From contig JASUTF010000018.1 of NCBI GenBank assembly GCA_030445695.1, positions 1 through 18,672 on the forward strand: 18,672 nt of DNA, read 5' to 3'. The stretch is from Candidatus Iainarchaeum sp. Its GTDB lineage: Archaea; Iainarchaeota; Iainarchaeia; JAADDC01. Numbering within the stretch: position 1 is the stretch's first letter; the number at the start of each line of letters is the position of its first letter. Positions 4,679 to 13,056 of the stretch are shown piece after piece. A model generated the notes under the pieces. That model was given only the letters and a program-made list of their open reading frames with translations, was not told the origin of the DNA and ran no database searches. The translations under genes were made by a program, and so were the position numbers.

Positions 4679-4786
4679 CCGGGGGTAGCTCAACCTGGTA
4701 GAGCGGCCGGCTGTAGTCTGGCTTCTGGGCCCAACCTGCAACAGGCAGAAACCGGCAGGTTGGGGGTTCAAATCCCTCCCCCCGGA
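4679..4786 (+). tRNA. tRNA-Tyr (anticodon GUA) with a 34-nt intron
   Basis: The acceptor CCGGGGG (4679-4685) pairs with CCCCCGG (4779-4785), discriminator A4786. The C1-G72 pair is the archaeal tRNA-Tyr identity element. The D arm is GCTC/GAGC (4688-4691, 4701-4704). The anticodon 5' stem GCCGG (4706-4710) pairs with CCGGC (4752-4756). The anticodon GTA is at 4713-4715, and the T stem is 4762-4766/4774-4778. Exons are 4679-4716 and 4751-4786, with the intron after position 37. No CCA is encoded. Confidence 0.96.
4717..4750 (+). other. tRNA-Tyr intron with canonical bulge-helix-bulge
   Basis: The intron interrupts tRNA-Tyr between positions 37 and 38. A bulge-helix-bulge can be drawn exactly. 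Exon CTGT (4711-4714) pairs with intron GCAG (4745-4748) as the 4-bp central helix. The 3-nt bulges are AGT (4715-4717) and AAA (4749-4751). The inner helix is CTG (4718-4720) with CAG (4742-4744), and the anticodon stem is the outer helix. Cutting after the second bulge nucleotide on both strands gives the stated borders. This is the standard substrate of archaeal splicing endonuclease. Confidence 0.92.
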
Positions 4787-5910: not shown

Positions 5911-5920
5911 ATTTATATAC
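5911..5920. promoter_or_regulatory. Single bidirectional TATA box for 303-aa gene and cysS transcript
   Basis: ATTTATATAC on the plus strand reads GTATATAAAT on the minus strand, so it can serve either direction. Its centre is 25 nt from GTG 5890 (minus) and 26 nt from ATG 5942 (plus), matching the spacing of other leaderless starts here. Orientation would be set by flanking BRE elements, which are not clear to me. Confidence 0.6.
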
Positions 5921-5927
5921 GTCCCCG

Positions 5928-5946
5928 CCCATCTTGGTAAGATGGG
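5928..5946. promoter_or_regulatory. Operator-like 8-bp inverted repeat at the cysS start site
   Basis: CCCATCTT (5928-5935), spacer GGT, then AAGATGGG (5939-5946) is a perfect 8-bp dyad. It sits just downstream of the TATA box and covers the predicted +1 of the cysS transcript, the classic position of an archaeal repressor operator. The same dyad places an ATG on each strand. No regulator gene adjacent to it is recognised. Confidence 0.5.
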
Positions 5947-5968
5947 TGTTTGCCTTTGCCTTTGTTGA
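5942..5968 (+). CDS. Cys-rich 8-aa leader peptide upstream of cysS (putative)
   Basis: ATG 5942 opens an 8-codon ORF reading M-G-V-C-L-C-L-C followed by TGA. Three of eight codons are cysteine (TGC, TGC, TGT). The ATG lies 26 nt downstream of the TATA box centre, so the transcript would begin with this AUG and the ORF would be translated leaderlessly. The stop is 41 nt before the cysS start. A cysteine-codon leader in front of cysteinyl-tRNA synthetase suggests sensing of charged tRNA-Cys. This is inference; the ORF is short and may be chance. Confidence 0.45.
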   Translation: MGVCLCLC

Positions 5969-6009
5969 CGCCCCTCTTCTGATTTTCCTACTCGCTGGAG
6001 GTGAAAAAG

Positions 6010-7395
6010 GTGGTTCTGAGGGTATACAATACAATTAGCGGGCAGAAGGAAGAGTTCAAGACGCTGGAACCGGGAAAGGTAAAGATGTACGTGTGTGGGC
6101 CGACCACGTATGACCATTCACACATCGGGCATATGAGAACGTTCGCATTCTTTGACGTGGTCCGGAGATGGCTGGAAGAGAGAGGATACAGCGTCACCAT
6201 GCTCATAAACATAACGGACATAGATGACAAGACCATACGCCGGGCAAACGAAGAGGGCGTCTCCTTCGCGGAGATCGCGGACAGATACATGTTCGACTTC
6301 ATAAACGCGCTCCGCTCATACAACATCCGCCTCCCGAACATCATGCCCAAGGCCACCAGCGTCATAGCGGACATGTACTACGTTATTCAAACGCTCATAG
6401 ACAAGGGGCACGCATACGTGGCCGAGGATGGCGTCTACTTCGACGTATCAACATTCCCGGATTATGGAAAGCTCTCCGGGCAGAAAAGAGAGTTCCTGCT
6501 CACGGGTGTCCGCATAGAGCCGTCCCCGCACAAGAGGAACGCTGGTGACTTCGCACTCTGGAAAAAGAGAAAGGAGGGGGAGCCGTTCTGGCACGCTCCG
6601 TGGATGGAGGGGCGGCCGGGATGGCACATCGAGTGTTCCACCATGATCTGGAAGTATTTGGGCGAGCAAATCGACATACACGGGGGAGGAAACGACCTGA
6701 TCTTCCCGCACCACGAGAACGAGATCGCACAGAGCGAGGCGTTCACGGGAAAGAAACCCTTCGTACGCTACTGGATGCACGTGGGCATGCTGAAGATAAA
6801 CGGAGAGAAGATGAGCAAGTCGCTGGGCAATTTTATCGTATGGTTCGACGCGCTCAAGATGGCACCCGCGGCGGCATGGCGTCTCTACTACGCAATGAAC
6901 GCCTACAGACAGCCCATGAACGTAACAGAGGAGGGCATAAACAACGCATACGAGGCGACAAAAAGGATCTACAGGACGGAACTGGCACTTAAGCAGGCGA
7001 TAGAGGACAACGAACTGGGAGACATGGAATACAGCCCTGATAAGAGGTGGAAACAGTTCTCGGAAAGGATGGACGACGACTTCGACACCCCAGGGGCCGT
7101 GGCGGCACTCATGGAACTCATAAACGACGTAGGCGGCAAGATATACAAAATGAACGAGAATTCCGCGGAAAACACGCTGAGCGTGCTTAGGAAGATGATG
7201 TACACGCTCGGTATGCCGGAGATAGAGGTGGACGAGCGAACGAAGAGGATCATAGACGAGATCGTGGCCCTCCGCACGGAGTTCAGGGAGCGAAAGGAAT
7301 ACGAGAAATCGGACGCCATACGTGCGACGCTGGCAGAGGCGGGCATAGAACTCCACGACGGAAAGAAGGGCACACGCTGGTTCCTGCTCCCGTGA
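6010..7395 (+). CDS. cysS: Cysteinyl-tRNA synthetase
   Basis: A 461-aa class I synthetase charging tRNA-Cys. The HIGH motif is 38-HIGH-41 within YDHSHIGHMRTF. KMSKS is at 267-271. Zinc ligands of the CysRS active site are visible as Cys29 (YVCGPT), Cys in WHIECSTM and His in FPHHENE. Length is typical. The start is placed at GTG 6010: a perfect Shine-Dalgarno GGAGGTGA (5997-6004) precedes it by 5 nt and overlaps the alternative in-frame GTG 6001. The gene thus has a translated-type leader of about 68 nt, unlike the leaderless genes nearby. Upstream lie a shared TATA box, an inverted repeat and a Cys-rich mini-ORF. Confidence 0.97.
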   Translation: MVLRVYNTISGQKEEFKTLEPGKVKMYVCGPTTYDHSHIGHMRTFAFFDVVRRWLEERGYSVTMLINITDIDDKTIRRANEEGVSFAEIADRYMFDFINALRSYNIRLPNIMPKATSVIADMYYVIQTLIDKGHAYVAEDGVYFDVSTFPDYGKLSGQKREFLLTGVRIEPSPHKRNAGDFALWKKRKEGEPFWHAPWMEGRPGWHIECSTMIWKYLGEQIDIHGGGNDLIFPHHENEIAQSEAFTGKKPFVRYWMHVGMLKINGEKMSKSLGNFIVWFDALKMAPAAAWRLYYAMNAYRQPMNVTEEGINNAYEATKRIYRTELALKQAIEDNELGDMEYSPDKRWKQFSERMDDDFDTPGAVAALMELINDVGGKIYKMNENSAENTLSVLRKMMYTLGMPEIEVDERTKRIIDEIVALRTEFRERKEYEKSDAIRATLAEAGIELHDGKKGTRWFLLP

Positions 7396-8982: not shown

Positions 8983-10043
8983 AGAGAGTGGGTCATGCGG
9001 ATCTCCGGCTCTGCTCCGGGCCAGTGCCACACTATAGGCAGATCGTGGAACTCGGCGGGGCGTTGATAGAGTATATGGTGGATGAGATAGGCACGGCGGA
9101 AACGCTCAGAAAGTTCTCAGACCCCATCTGGTTCGAGGCCATGGCCAGCGCCATGGGCTTTGAGTGGCAGTTCTCCGGAGCAACTACTGTAACTTTAAGG
9201 GCGATTTCTGAGGCGATACGGGGAAAGGAAGAATCACTGGGGCTCTGGGTAGTAGGAGGGAAGGGCAGCGACGCGAGAACGGTGGACAAGATCCCCGAAG
9301 AACTTGCAGAACCGGATGTGACCACCACAAAGGTTGATTCTGCCCTCGTGCAGGACGGATACAGCATATACTTTCACTCGATACTTTACGACGAAAGGAA
9401 GCGTTGGGTGGTGGTAAACCAGGGGATGAACGTGGAGGACAGGTTGGCCAGACGATACCACTGGAGCTGGGAGGAAGGGCGGTATCTGAACGACGCGGAG
9501 AGCATAGCAGGAAGAAAGGAGAAAATAGTTATGGATCTGCAGACGAAGAATAGTGAGGAGGCCAGAAAAACGATACTGGACATCGTGCGGGACGAACCTC
9601 CGAAGAAAATCGTATACACGATCCTTTCCCTTAGACGGCGGCCGGGACAGATGACGCTTGCTGATTTCGGCAACGGAGGATCTGTAAAAGTAGAGTACAT
9701 GCCCTTTGCGTTCAGGATTCCAAAAAGAATAAGCGAGGAGGCGCTGCAAGTAGCTAAAAACGCCGAAAACTTCCTTGAACTCATAAGAACGCCGGGAATA
9801 GGACCGTCCACAGTTCGAGGGCTGGCATTCGTCGCGTCTCTCGTCTACGGGGCGCCCGTCTCGTGGAAAGACCCCGTAAAGTATACTTACGCCTTCGGGA
9901 CAAAGGCAGGGAAACCATGGATGGTGGAACGGGAGGAGATGGTAAAGGCAGCGTCTTTTCTGCGTCAGGCGGTAGAAGAAGCAAAAGTAGGGGATAAAAC
10001 AAAGAAGGGGGCGCTTCAGCGCCTCTCAAGAATAGTTGCCTAG
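8979..10043 (+). CDS. DUF763-family protein (COG1415)
   Basis: A 354-aa protein matching the DUF763 family: start MKRVGHADLRL, SDPIWFEAMASAMGFEWQFS, WVVGGKGSDAR, KVDSALVQDGYSIYFHSILYD, WVVVNQGMN, ARRYHW, and a C-terminal helix-hairpin-helix-like PGIGPSTVRGLAFVASLVYG followed by DPVKYTYAFGTKAGKPW. The family is conserved in archaea and some bacteria with no assigned biochemical function; the HhH-like element suggests contact with nucleic acid. GTG 8979 is the family start, and its GTG overlaps the TGA of the preceding gene. A longer frame opening at 8916 is not supported. The 3' end overlaps ileS tail-to-tail by 18 bp. Confidence 0.87.
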   Translation: MKRVGHADLRLCSGPVPHYRQIVELGGALIEYMVDEIGTAETLRKFSDPIWFEAMASAMGFEWQFSGATTVTLRAISEAIRGKEESLGLWVVGGKGSDARTVDKIPEELAEPDVTTTKVDSALVQDGYSIYFHSILYDERKRWVVVNQGMNVEDRLARRYHWSWEEGRYLNDAESIAGRKEKIVMDLQTKNSEEARKTILDIVRDEPPKKIVYTILSLRRRPGQMTLADFGNGGSVKVEYMPFAFRIPKRISEEALQVAKNAENFLELIRTPGIGPSTVRGLAFVASLVYGAPVSWKDPVKYTYAFGTKAGKPWMVEREEMVKAASFLRQAVEEAKVGDKTKKGALQRLSRIVA

Positions 10044-12938
10044 CGGCCGGACGGTTATACGCACGTAGTTGCCCTCTATGTTCTCCTCGACCGTCTCCCC
10101 CTCCAGCCGCTGCTCCTCGCTGAAAACAAGTTCCTCGATACCCGCCCTTGCACGGAGCAGGTCCCCGTGTTCCTTGACGGCCCTGCGTATCTCTTCACTG
10201 CCCCATATCTCCACGATTATTCTATCCTTTTCGAGCAGGTGGAGCTTCTTGCGAATATTCTGTATCCTGCGAAGCACCTCGCGGGCAAGTGCCTCGAGAT
10301 AGACGTCCTCGCTCAGTTCAGAGGGCACCGCAACAACACCGCCGTCGAACTCCTTGGAAACGTATCCCTCGGGGACGCTGTCGGTGAAGCGAAGCTCCTT
10401 TGCATTGACGTAACGCAGGAACGCGTCCCTGAACGTCTCGAACGGTTTCCTGTCCTTCACGACGAGGACCACGTCCTGTACTGGCCAGCGGAGGCGAATC
10501 CCTGCATCGTGGCGTGCCGCAAGCACCGCTTCTGCTGCCGCCATAACTGTATCAAACGCGTCCTCAAGCTCGGGGTGGTGGCGGAACTTCACGGGCTCCG
10601 GGTAGTCGATCAGGTGAACACTCTCCGGACCGCCGAAGGGCCGTACAACGTCCTGATAAATCTTCTCTGATATGAACGGGACAAAGGGAGCGGTAAGGAC
10701 CACCGCCTGCTTTAACACGTCGTATATTGTTTGATAGGCAGCCACCTTGCTCGGATCCTTCTCCGGGAGCTTCATGCGCTCGCGGACGAGTTTCACGTAT
10801 GTTCTGCTGAAGTCCTCCAGTATGAAGTCCTTGAGCGTTTCGAAGGCCTTGTCGTGACGGTGACGCTCCATGTAGTCATTAACTTCCTGTGTAACGGTCT
10901 GCAGGCGTGAGAGAATCCATACATCCTCCGGTGCAAGGTAAGATGTCCTGTCCTTCTCAGGATTGAAGTGGAACTGGTCCACATAGCGTTTCAGCAGCTG
11001 TGCGAGGTTCCAGTAGGTGTTCAGGAAGGTGTAATACTGTTTCACTTCCTCCCAGTCGAAGCGGATGTCCTCGCCCACGGGCCGGGAAACCATGTATGCA
11101 CGGAGCGTGTCCCTCGTATACTTCTCTATAACGTCCTCAGGAGCGACAACGTTGCCAAGCGACTTGCTCATCTTTATGCCGTGCACGTCCAGGACGAAGC
11201 CGTGCATGACAACGTTCTCGAAGGGCCTCCTGTCGAACACGATAACGCTGGTGATCATCTGGGAGTTCCACCAGCCACGCACCTGGTCCACACCCTCTAT
11301 CTCGAGGTCCGCCGGCCAGTAGCGCTTGAAGAGTTCCTCGTTCTTCGGGTACCCGAGGGCGGCCCACGTTGTAATCCCCGAGTCGAACCAGACGTCCAGG
11401 ACGTCGGGCGTGCGGTGCATCTCGCCGCCACACTTGGGGCACTTGAGAACAACTTGGTCCACCCACGGGCGGTGCAGTTCGAGGTGCTCCGGCAGTTTCA
11501 CGGCCTTCTGAAGTAATTCGCCCTTGGAACCAATGACCTCCACGTGCCCGCATTTATCGCATATCCATATGGGCGTTGGTATGCCCCAGAAACGCTGCCT
11601 GCTTATGGGCCAGTCGCGGAGGTTGTCCACCCAGTCCTTGAATCGCTCCGTAGCCCACTCCGGCGTCCACTTGACCTTCTCCGCCTCCCTCTTTATCTCA
11701 TCCTTTATATCGGACACCTTGTAGAACCACTCGTCCACGGATATAAACAGCAAGGGCGTCTTACAGCGCCAGCATATGGGGTACTGGTGTCTCAAAGTGC
11801 TCGCATGGACCAGAAGGCCCTTCTTCTCGAGATCCTGCAGGATCACCTTGTCGGCGTCCTTCACGAACATGCCCGCATACTTGCCGGCGTCCTCCGTATA
11901 CGTTCCGTCTATGCGCACGGGAGAGAATACGGGGAGGCCGTACTCCTGACCCACGAGGAAGTCCTCGCGTCCGTGACCTGGAGCGCTGTGCACGAGGCCT
12001 GTACCGTCCTCCATGCTCACGTATCGCTCGGACATGACCACGACGTGGGGCATCTCCCTCTGCTTCGGAACTTCCCCCTCAAGAACGCCCCTGTATTTCA
12101 ATCCTTCCAGTTCCTTGCCGGGGAACTCCTCGAGAACTTCGTAGCCCTCCCATCCCAGCTCCTGGGCTACCGGCTCCAAACGGGTCTCTGCAAGTATGTA
12201 GATGCGGTCGCCCACGCGAACCCTCACGTATCGCTCGGTGGGGTGCGCCATTATGGCCACGTTGGCAACCAGCGTCCACGGAGTGGTGGTCCAGACGAGG
12301 AGGAACTCGTTCTCCTTCCCTTCGACGGGGAAAGCCACGTATACAGACGGGTCTTCTTTCTCCGTGTACTCCACCTCGGCGAAGGAGACGACGGTGCCAC
12401 AGTGGGGACAGACGTGCACGGGATACTTCCCTTTATAGAGTAAACCGCGCTCGTAGGCCTTCTTGAACGTCCACCAGCCAGACTCTATGTACTCGTCCCT
12501 CAACGTGATGTATGGATTTTCCCAGTCCATCCAGACGCCGAGGTTCTTGAACTGCTCAGTCATGGCGTCTATGTGCTCCGTGGCGAACTCCTTGCACATG
12601 TTCACGAAGTTCTCAACACCCACTTTCTCCTCTATCTCCTTCTTTGATGAAACGCCCAGCTTTTTCTCCACCTTGTTCTCAATGGGCGTGCCGTGCGTGT
12701 CAAAACCGGGACGGTCGAAGACGTCATAGCCATTCATCCTGTAGTATCGGATGTAGACGTCCTTCAGGATCTTGTTCCACGCCGTTCCAAGGTGAATACG
12801 ACCCGTGGCGTACGGGGGGCCGTCCATAAAGAAGAAGGGTTTTCCATCCTTCCTTTGCTCCTTCGCCTTTTTGTATACATCGTTCTTCTCCCAGAACGCA
12901 CGCACTTCCTCCTCTACTTCCTTAGAGTATCGGCTCAT
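10026..12938 (-). CDS. ileS: Isoleucyl-tRNA synthetase
   Basis: A 970-aa class I synthetase charging tRNA-Ile. The HIGH-type motif is HLGT (49-52) in PPYATGRIHLGTAWNKILKD. KMSKS is at 589-593 in HGIKMSKSLGNVV. The CP1 editing domain shows WTTTPWTLVANVA and GTGLVHSAPGHGRED. Zinc-type pairs are CPHC (177-180), CWRC, CDKC and CPKC, and VLDVWFDSG follows the last. The anticodon-binding helical domain and a C-terminal extension complete the protein. ATG 12938 is preceded by a GGAGG Shine-Dalgarno 8 nt upstream. A roughly 90-nt structured leader lies between the gene and its upstream neighbour. It is probably also reachable by read-through from the two genes upstream. Confidence 0.97.
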   Translation of the reverse strand: MSRYSKEVEEEVRAFWEKNDVYKKAKEQRKDGKPFFFMDGPPYATGRIHLGTAWNKILKDVYIRYYRMNGYDVFDRPGFDTHGTPIENKVEKKLGVSSKKEIEEKVGVENFVNMCKEFATEHIDAMTEQFKNLGVWMDWENPYITLRDEYIESGWWTFKKAYERGLLYKGKYPVHVCPHCGTVVSFAEVEYTEKEDPSVYVAFPVEGKENEFLLVWTTTPWTLVANVAIMAHPTERYVRVRVGDRIYILAETRLEPVAQELGWEGYEVLEEFPGKELEGLKYRGVLEGEVPKQREMPHVVVMSERYVSMEDGTGLVHSAPGHGREDFLVGQEYGLPVFSPVRIDGTYTEDAGKYAGMFVKDADKVILQDLEKKGLLVHASTLRHQYPICWRCKTPLLFISVDEWFYKVSDIKDEIKREAEKVKWTPEWATERFKDWVDNLRDWPISRQRFWGIPTPIWICDKCGHVEVIGSKGELLQKAVKLPEHLELHRPWVDQVVLKCPKCGGEMHRTPDVLDVWFDSGITTWAALGYPKNEELFKRYWPADLEIEGVDQVRGWWNSQMITSVIVFDRRPFENVVMHGFVLDVHGIKMSKSLGNVVAPEDVIEKYTRDTLRAYMVSRPVGEDIRFDWEEVKQYYTFLNTYWNLAQLLKRYVDQFHFNPEKDRTSYLAPEDVWILSRLQTVTQEVNDYMERHRHDKAFETLKDFILEDFSRTYVKLVRERMKLPEKDPSKVAAYQTIYDVLKQAVVLTAPFVPFISEKIYQDVVRPFGGPESVHLIDYPEPVKFRHHPELEDAFDTVMAAAEAVLAARHDAGIRLRWPVQDVVLVVKDRKPFETFRDAFLRYVNAKELRFTDSVPEGYVSKEFDGGVVAVPSELSEDVYLEALAREVLRRIQNIRKKLHLLEKDRIIVEIWGSEEIRRAVKEHGDLLRARAGIEELVFSEEQRLEGETVEENIEGNYVRITVRPLGNYS

Positions 12939-12974: not shown

Positions 12975-13025
12975 CGGGTGAGGAGATCAGGACAGAACCA
13001 GGATTTGACAATCCCTCCTCACCCG
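12975..13025 (-). promoter_or_regulatory. Structured 5' leader of ileS: 11-bp hairpin with nested stem
   Basis: On the minus strand CGGGTGAGGAG (13025-13015) is a perfect complement of CTCCTCACCCG (12985-12975). Directly inside it a second stem GGATT/AATCC (13014-13010, 13005-13001) is capped by GTCA, followed by a 15-nt single-stranded joint TGGTTCTGTCCTGAT. The 5' arm is Shine-Dalgarno-like and the 3' arm anti-Shine-Dalgarno-like. A TATA-like box ATAAAAAC (13053-13060) would start transcription near 13030, at the foot of this structure. It is a candidate riboregulator of ileS; the ligand or signal is unknown. Confidence 0.5.
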
Positions 13026-13056
13026 ACTCACCGGTATGATATGGACACGCATGTTT

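Follow-up and report, generated by a model that had tools for sequence, protein, structure and literature searches.

Autoregulatory frameshifting is best known from prfB and antizyme. To our knowledge no T-boxes or trp-type attenuators are known for aminoacyl-tRNA synthetase genes in archaea. In bacterial prfB (release factor 2) an internal Shine-Dalgarno (SD) sequence and a CUU codon ahead of a slow stop codon lead to a +1 shift (PMC12421855; PMC5009743). When the prfB-type stop was replaced by UGU (CUU UGU) in a 70S in vitro system, a +1 shift arose at low cysteine and was stimulated by an upstream hairpin (PMC6321510); a short SD spacing favours +1 slips, whereas an SD 8-11 nt upstream of the slippery site favours -1 slips (PMC6321510 and references there). 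For archaea, the -1 shift of Saccharolobus fucA1 was in 2021 the only reported case of its kind, and the part of the review that says so names no +1 case (PMC8211752); a 2016 review gives a likely +1 shift in one archaeal virus. The fucA1 gene shares with the leaders described below programmed frameshifting in an archaeon; unlike the shift proposed here, that of fucA1 is -1 and is not regulatory for synthetases. In open-licence papers we found no synthetase controlled by frameshifting and no programmed +1 shift of a cellular archaeal gene.

The cysS locus and the reading proposed for its leader

We examined the region upstream of cysS within the window, which is the whole analysed stretch of 18,672 nucleotides. 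An earlier note on this DNA had placed a leaderless 8-codon ORF after a TATA box and ahead of a cysS gene with its own SD, and this arrangement was confirmed in the sequence; the leader codons from the ATG at 5942 are ATG GGT GTT TGC CTT TGC CTT TGT TGA. The features of the locus are as follows.

5912-5919, + strand: TATA box TTTATATA of the cysS transcript, ending 22 nt before the leader start
5942-5968, + strand: leaderless 0-frame leader ORF MGVCLCLC*, of which M-G-x-x-L-C is kept in 7/7 readable leaders from two genera
5945-5948, + strand: SD-like GGTG, exactly 5 nt upstream of the slippery codon, as in 38/38 leaders of its class
5954-5956, + strand: putative slippery P-site codon CTT, which would re-pair on TTT at 5955-5957; CTT in 7/7 cysS leaders
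5957-5959, + strand: putative sensor (hungry) Cys codon TGC, cognate in 7/7 and the sole Cys codon kept in all relatives
5966-5968, + strand: 0-frame stop TGA, two codons past the sensor codon
5958-6038, + strand: +1-frame ORF that would be read after the slip, crossing the cysS SD and start, with stop TAG at 6036-6038
5997-6004, + strand: SD of cysS, GGAGGTGA, an 8-nt match at spacing 8
6010-7395, + strand: cysS, cysteinyl-tRNA synthetase (CysRS), start GTG at 6010

We propose, with a probability of about 0.84 and from comparison of sequences, that the leader serves as a sensor of charged tRNA by autoregulatory programmed +1 frameshifting at a hungry cognate codon. The ribosome would begin on the mini-ORF at or near the mRNA 5' end and would come to stand with CTT in the P site and the Cys codon in the A site, the SD-like GGTG lying slightly too close upstream. 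With Cys-tRNA plentiful, the Cys codon would be read and the ribosome would halt at the 0-frame stop, giving little CysRS; with Cys-tRNA scarce, the A site would stay empty, the SD contact would strain the P-site pairing, and the peptidyl-tRNA would slip from CUU to UUU, whereupon the ribosome would go on in the +1 frame into cysS and more enzyme would be made when charged tRNA is short. Where leader and gene overlap, the +1 frame is the synthetase frame and the enzyme would be made directly; in most spaced leaders, including that of the window cysS, the +1 frame crosses the start and translational coupling (termination-reinitiation) would have to follow. The occurrence of the shift, its response to charging, its efficiency and the coupling step are all what we infer from the sequences. 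The same device, with slippery and sensor codons exchanged, would operate ahead of ileS, thrS, leuS, hisS, tyrS, trpS and valS.

Such a leader would resemble bacterial prfB in its short 0-frame ORF with a slippery CUU followed by U and an internal SD just upstream, in the slow A-site codon that is read via the gene's own product, and in the placing of the functional protein in the +1 frame. It would differ from prfB in having a sense codon in the A site and in responding to charged tRNA, whereas the prfB signal is the release factor; in the SD spacing, which is 6-7 here (less compressed) versus 3 nt in prfB; in a 0-frame ORF that begins right at or close to the 5' end of the mRNA, with some members coupling to a separate start; and in being archaeal and recurring ahead of at least eight genes, each time with a slippery codon matched to the sensor codon. 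With hungry-codon frameshifting (PMC6321510) the leaders would share a +1 slip at a sense codon after CUU when the A site is empty; that is a laboratory effect, whereas the leaders here appear to be a regulatory device built into the genes. If the proposal is true, it would give a sequence-defined answer for one lineage to how synthetase levels are matched to tRNA charging; it would widen autoregulatory frameshifting to sense codons and a whole gene set, and hungry-codon frameshifting, otherwise a translation error, would become a regulatory sensor.

Conservation and distribution of the leaders

Leaders at the same place in three genomes of the same genus read MGVRLCPCN*, MGAGLC* and MGVCLCPC*, and those ahead of cysS in the sister genus read MGGRLCL*, MGGRLCR* and MGEGLCTL*; the leader is thus present in every readable case although CysRS is only about 41% identical between the two genera. 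Within the constant M-G-x-x-L-C there is a single Cys codon, always directly after CTT. Of the Cys codons on which the earlier note had built, TGC at 5957 is the one kept throughout; those at 5951 and 5963 of the window copy are not conserved. From TATA box to leader start there are 22-24 nt in each of the seven cysS leaders and 21-23 nt in most leaders of the wider set. Conservation stops at the leader stop codon, the spacers to cysS being 39-55% identical within the genus (near-random). A genus-wide motif search allowing up to 2 mismatches recovered the cysS leader in 4/4 genomes with cysS; the other matches, at 2 mismatches, were the leuS leader of G004 and the tyrS leader of G001, which belong to the same leader family as the cysS leader, and one in G002, a genome without cysS. 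No such leader was seen ahead of cysS genes from other families of the class, so that the device, in the case of cysS, seems to be confined to this family.

The two copies of GCCTTT (5952-5957 and 5958-5963) and the AAAGGT (6006-6011) from which the earlier note had derived an RNA switch are present as written, but the AAAGGT partner is replaced in all three relatives. The proposal that a stalled ribosome uncovers the cysS start through GCCTTT:AAAGGT pairing was rejected because of this loss; SD sequestration was, moreover, no stronger than in shuffled spacers, and as a common output of the leaders it was discarded on the same grounds (mean z 0.42).

We surveyed the upstream regions of the Cys, Leu, His, Tyr, Trp, Val, Ile, Thr, Phe, Ser, Gly, Asp, Met and Pro synthetase genes in ten genomes from two genera of one uncultivated archaeal family, several of the assemblies being incomplete. 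Similar leaders were found ahead of ileS, leuS, hisS, tyrS, trpS, valS and thrS, and less clearly ahead of pheS and serS; the putative sensor leader is not specific to cysS. The codons at the slip position are listed here by amino acid.

Cys: slippery CTT, cognate TGY, 7 genomes
Leu: slippery CTT, cognate CTN or TTG, 7 genomes
His: slippery CTT, cognate CAC, 6 genomes
Tyr: slippery CTT, cognate TAY, 6 genomes, with a seventh (G006) from the motif and frame scan
Trp: slippery CTT, cognate TGG, 4 genomes
Val: slippery CGG, cognate GTN, 8 genomes
Ile: slippery CAA or GAA, cognate ATH, 7 genomes
Thr: slippery CAA or GAA, cognate ACN, 4 genomes
Phe: slippery CAA, cognate TTT, 4 genomes tabulated, with a fifth visible in G003
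Ser: slippery CAA, cognate TCY, 4 genomes

The codon right after the slippery codon is cognate in 57/57 leaders of the ten synthetases, and no other aligned column behaves in this way; by label permutation across the ten synthetases the chance of the cognate pairing is 1/10! = 2.8e-7. The 0-frame stop falls 0-5 codons past the cognate codon. The claim that Cys-tRNA sensing controls cysS is the best reading by far, and it gains strength from the nine other synthetases with a codon for their own amino acid in the leader; the RNA-pairing mechanism first attached to it is not supported. Two exceptions were read by eye, namely the valS of G007, which is without a Val codon, and the valS of G004, which is without GGTG. 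No leader was seen for tyrS of G005 and G007, for trpS, pheS and serS of the sister genus, or for those glycyl, aspartyl, methionyl and prolyl synthetase genes that could be read. Covering as they do eight amino acids, with several different slippery codons and the SD in either of two positions, the leaders amount to a natural experiment in which the rules of slipping are directly testable.

Frames, slip codons and rival explanations

The leader, its cognate codon, the SD placement, the frames and their conservation are features of the sequences themselves. Four points argue for FRAMESHIFTING, namely the open +1 frame, the slippery-codon rule, the fixed SD position and a scan that ignored the cognate codon. 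As to the first, in 49/49 leaders, from eight synthetases, the +1 frame runs without a stop into the synthetase or past its start. Overlapping leaders have the synthetase itself in the +1 frame (24/24); hisS of this genus is an example, the gene lying in +1 and the start codon closest to the predicted 5' end of the mRNA belonging to the 0 frame. Of the leaders set apart from their gene, 25/25 keep the +1 frame open over the synthetase start, compared with 10.6 expected from dinucleotide shuffles of the spacers, and 6/25 keep the +2 frame open, compared with 10.3 expected from such shuffles. At the window cysS the 0 and +2 frames are closed, and the first base of the +1 stop codon lies 26 nt downstream of that of the start codon; every relative likewise has a +1 frame that stays open beyond the start of cysS. 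Apart from one leuS pair at 84%, the spacers are 36-77% identical, and no bias by third codon position is seen in them, which indicates that the open frame is kept and not the peptide; conservation of the +1 product at the peptide level was rejected for the same lack of bias.

As to the second point, the slippery codon tracks the first base of the sensor codon: CTT is used when that base is U or C, CAA or GAA when it is A, and CGG when it is G. With that base following, these are the codons able to re-pair in +1; a slip on CAA, GAA or CGG would keep only two of the three re-pairing bases. As to the third, GGTG stands exactly 5 nt upstream of the slippery codon in every leader of its class, and AGGAGG exactly 6 nt upstream in 11/11; the aligned SD-to-P-codon spacing is 6 or 7 (7 for the GGTG class), compared with mostly 8 (19/23) for the SDs of genes. 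As to the fourth, a scan by motif, frames and stops, with the cognate codon ignored, was run over 634 kb of family sequence (enriched for synthetase loci and partly redundant) and returned 50 distinct sites, of which 49 are synthetase leaders, all with the cognate codon, and include the tyrS leader of G006 that was absent from the leader table; the 50th is without a TATA box and is not a synthetase leader. In 279 kb of longer stretches, some chosen for known synthetases, there were five synthetase leaders and one chance site.

Classical leader-peptide control without a frameshift, in which a ribosome stalled at the cognate codon alters folding, SD access or termination and thereby increases synthetase expression, is the rival that survives best and is nonetheless improbable. 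It would account for the short leaderless ORFs, for the cognate codon conserved in them and for the strong leader-spacer stems of Ile and Thr leaders, and the leaders share with attenuators and with the mycobacterial leaderless poly-Cys uORFs (PMC4633059) a short leader ORF with the relevant codons and a leaderless start. But it does not predict the open +1 frame of spaced leaders, the synthetase in +1 in overlapping ones, the slippery rule or the fixed SD distance; an alternative fold would find no space in the overlapping leaders (his, val, trp); SD sequestration does not exceed that in shuffles; and one cognate codon only is conserved. The leaders are not classed as leader-peptide attenuators because there is no conserved cluster of cognate codons, and their open +1 frame and SD placement are not attenuator features. 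For cysS in particular, the poly-Cys attenuator on the mycobacterial pattern, to which the earlier note had pointed, does not fit MGAGLC*, MGGRLCL* and MGGRLCR*, which have one Cys codon each.

Dual initiation, whereby the synthetase frame has its own start at the GTG within GGTG or at an ATG close by, and the mini-ORF would reduce expression by competing with it, is still less probable. The GGTG of class B leaders always puts a GTG in the +1 frame, and in overlapping leaders such a start lies 4-22 nt past that of the leader; against this, neither the cognate nor the slippery codon is explained, and an internal GTG would have to serve without an upstream SD on a leaderless mRNA. Among the class A leaders, those of ileS and thrS from this genus show no +1 start codon ahead of the slip site in 7/7, so that internal initiation upstream cannot serve them.

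A T-box-like RNA, in which the cognate codon would be the specifier that binds uncharged tRNA and the peptide would play no part, we regard as very improbable. One codon-like triplet of cognate identity per gene would suit it, and the leaders do share with bacterial T-box riboswitches one specifier codon per synthetase gene and the logic of tRNA charging; unlike T-boxes, they contain no T-box RNA, and the codon would be read by the ribosome within an ORF. The window has no Rfam T-box match at the gathering threshold, for which reason the leader is not classed as a T-box; in overlapping leaders the synthetase start follows 4-22 nt after the leader start and leaves no room for one; and every leader maintains the reading frame set by its start codon. 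Nor would a T-box explain the frames and the slippery rule. A chance short ORF with leftover sequence similarity can practically be dismissed, since, common as short ORFs are, this one is kept across genera with so diverged a CysRS, ten synthetases have the right codon, and off-target matches came to one in 634 kb and one in 279 kb.

Within the reading as a programmed +1 shift, coupling is the weakest step because the spaced genes carry good SDs of their own, which by simple folding are not hidden above chance. The cysS leaders of G006 and G007 have a +1 frame that runs on into cysS; in the window's genus it crosses the start but differs from the cysS frame. In other spaced leaders of this genus, too, the +1 frame is not that of the synthetase, so that the proposal has to include a coupling step. 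The +1 frame of most spaced leaders ends 4-32 nt after the synthetase start, and ATGA or TTGA overlaps occur for ileS of two genomes and leuS of one.

The ileS leader, class C and minor observations

A second leader of the same kind lies ahead of ileS in the window, with the following features.

12987-13031, - strand: leader ORF VSRVRRDCQILVLS*, its TATA box AATAAAAA ending 22 nt before the start
13014-13019, - strand: internal SD AGGAGG, 6 nt upstream of the slippery codon as in 11/11 Ile and Thr leaders
13002-13007, - strand: putative slippery CAA and sensor ATC (Ile), with Ile there in 7/7 genomes
12935-12937, - strand: +1-frame stop TGA, overlapping the ileS start (ATGA)
10026-12938, - strand: ileS, isoleucyl-tRNA synthetase

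An 11-bp stem (CGGGUGAGGAG : CUCCUCACCCG) joins this leader to its spacer and recurs in relatives with changed bases. Strong stems between leader and downstream spacer are found in Ile and Thr leaders; a stem from leader start to spacer was rejected as a common device, and since it is not general it is treated as a possible extra.

Class C comprises pheS and serS of this genus (L239-L242, L244 and L103, L105-L107), with leaders MPSQF* and MPYQS(A)*, a conserved GATGCCGTNCCAATNN and the cognate codon after CAA. Here the frame open towards the gene is -1/+2, pheS lying in it and serS being overlapped by it, and the SD stands 11-12 nt before the CAA codon. That class C uses a -1 shift would fit the spacing rule and is unproven, the slip from CAA to CCA not being attractive. 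On the evidence of the whole set we lean towards the view that at least eight, perhaps ten, synthetases are under one modular frameshift switch, in which the sensor codon would name the amino acid and the slippery codon would be matched to its first base, with pheS and serS served by a -1 shift and an SD at 11-12 nt. Such a switch would be a third general route, beside T-boxes and attenuators, by which genes sense the charging of their tRNA, and the first case in Archaea of a programmed +1 shift in cellular genes.

In the sister genus, L171, L191 and L210 (concerning ileS, thrS or cysS) have a leader fused with the gene start, AGGAGGG-ATG or GGTG doubling as SD and start in the +1 frame; such fusions show how spaced and overlapping forms can interconvert. 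A caution that follows from the leaders is that in genomes which have them the annotated starts of synthetases are probably wrong. Short ORFs at the leaderless TATA distance with a long ORF in the +1 frame were also seen at L258:13650 (- strand) and L260:15010 (+ strand), the long ORFs encoding an endonuclease III-like protein and a 307-aa protein; both sites are without SD and slip motif, and could represent chance or another use.

A perfect hairpin, CCCATCTT-GGT-AAGATGGG, at 5928-5946 overlaps the start of the cysS leader; as an operator or hairpin it was set aside, being present in this genome only and lying mostly upstream of the expected transcription start. A pyrimidine-rich tract (CTCTTCTGATTTTCC, TTCTTCT or similar) at 5970-5990 is found at the same place after the leader stop in most spaced leaders, and could be a termination or cleavage signal. 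Elsewhere in the window, an Rfam match at 4679-4786 (+ strand) marks a 108-nt tRNA missed by ARAGORN, which is probably an intron-containing tRNA-Tyr (GTA).
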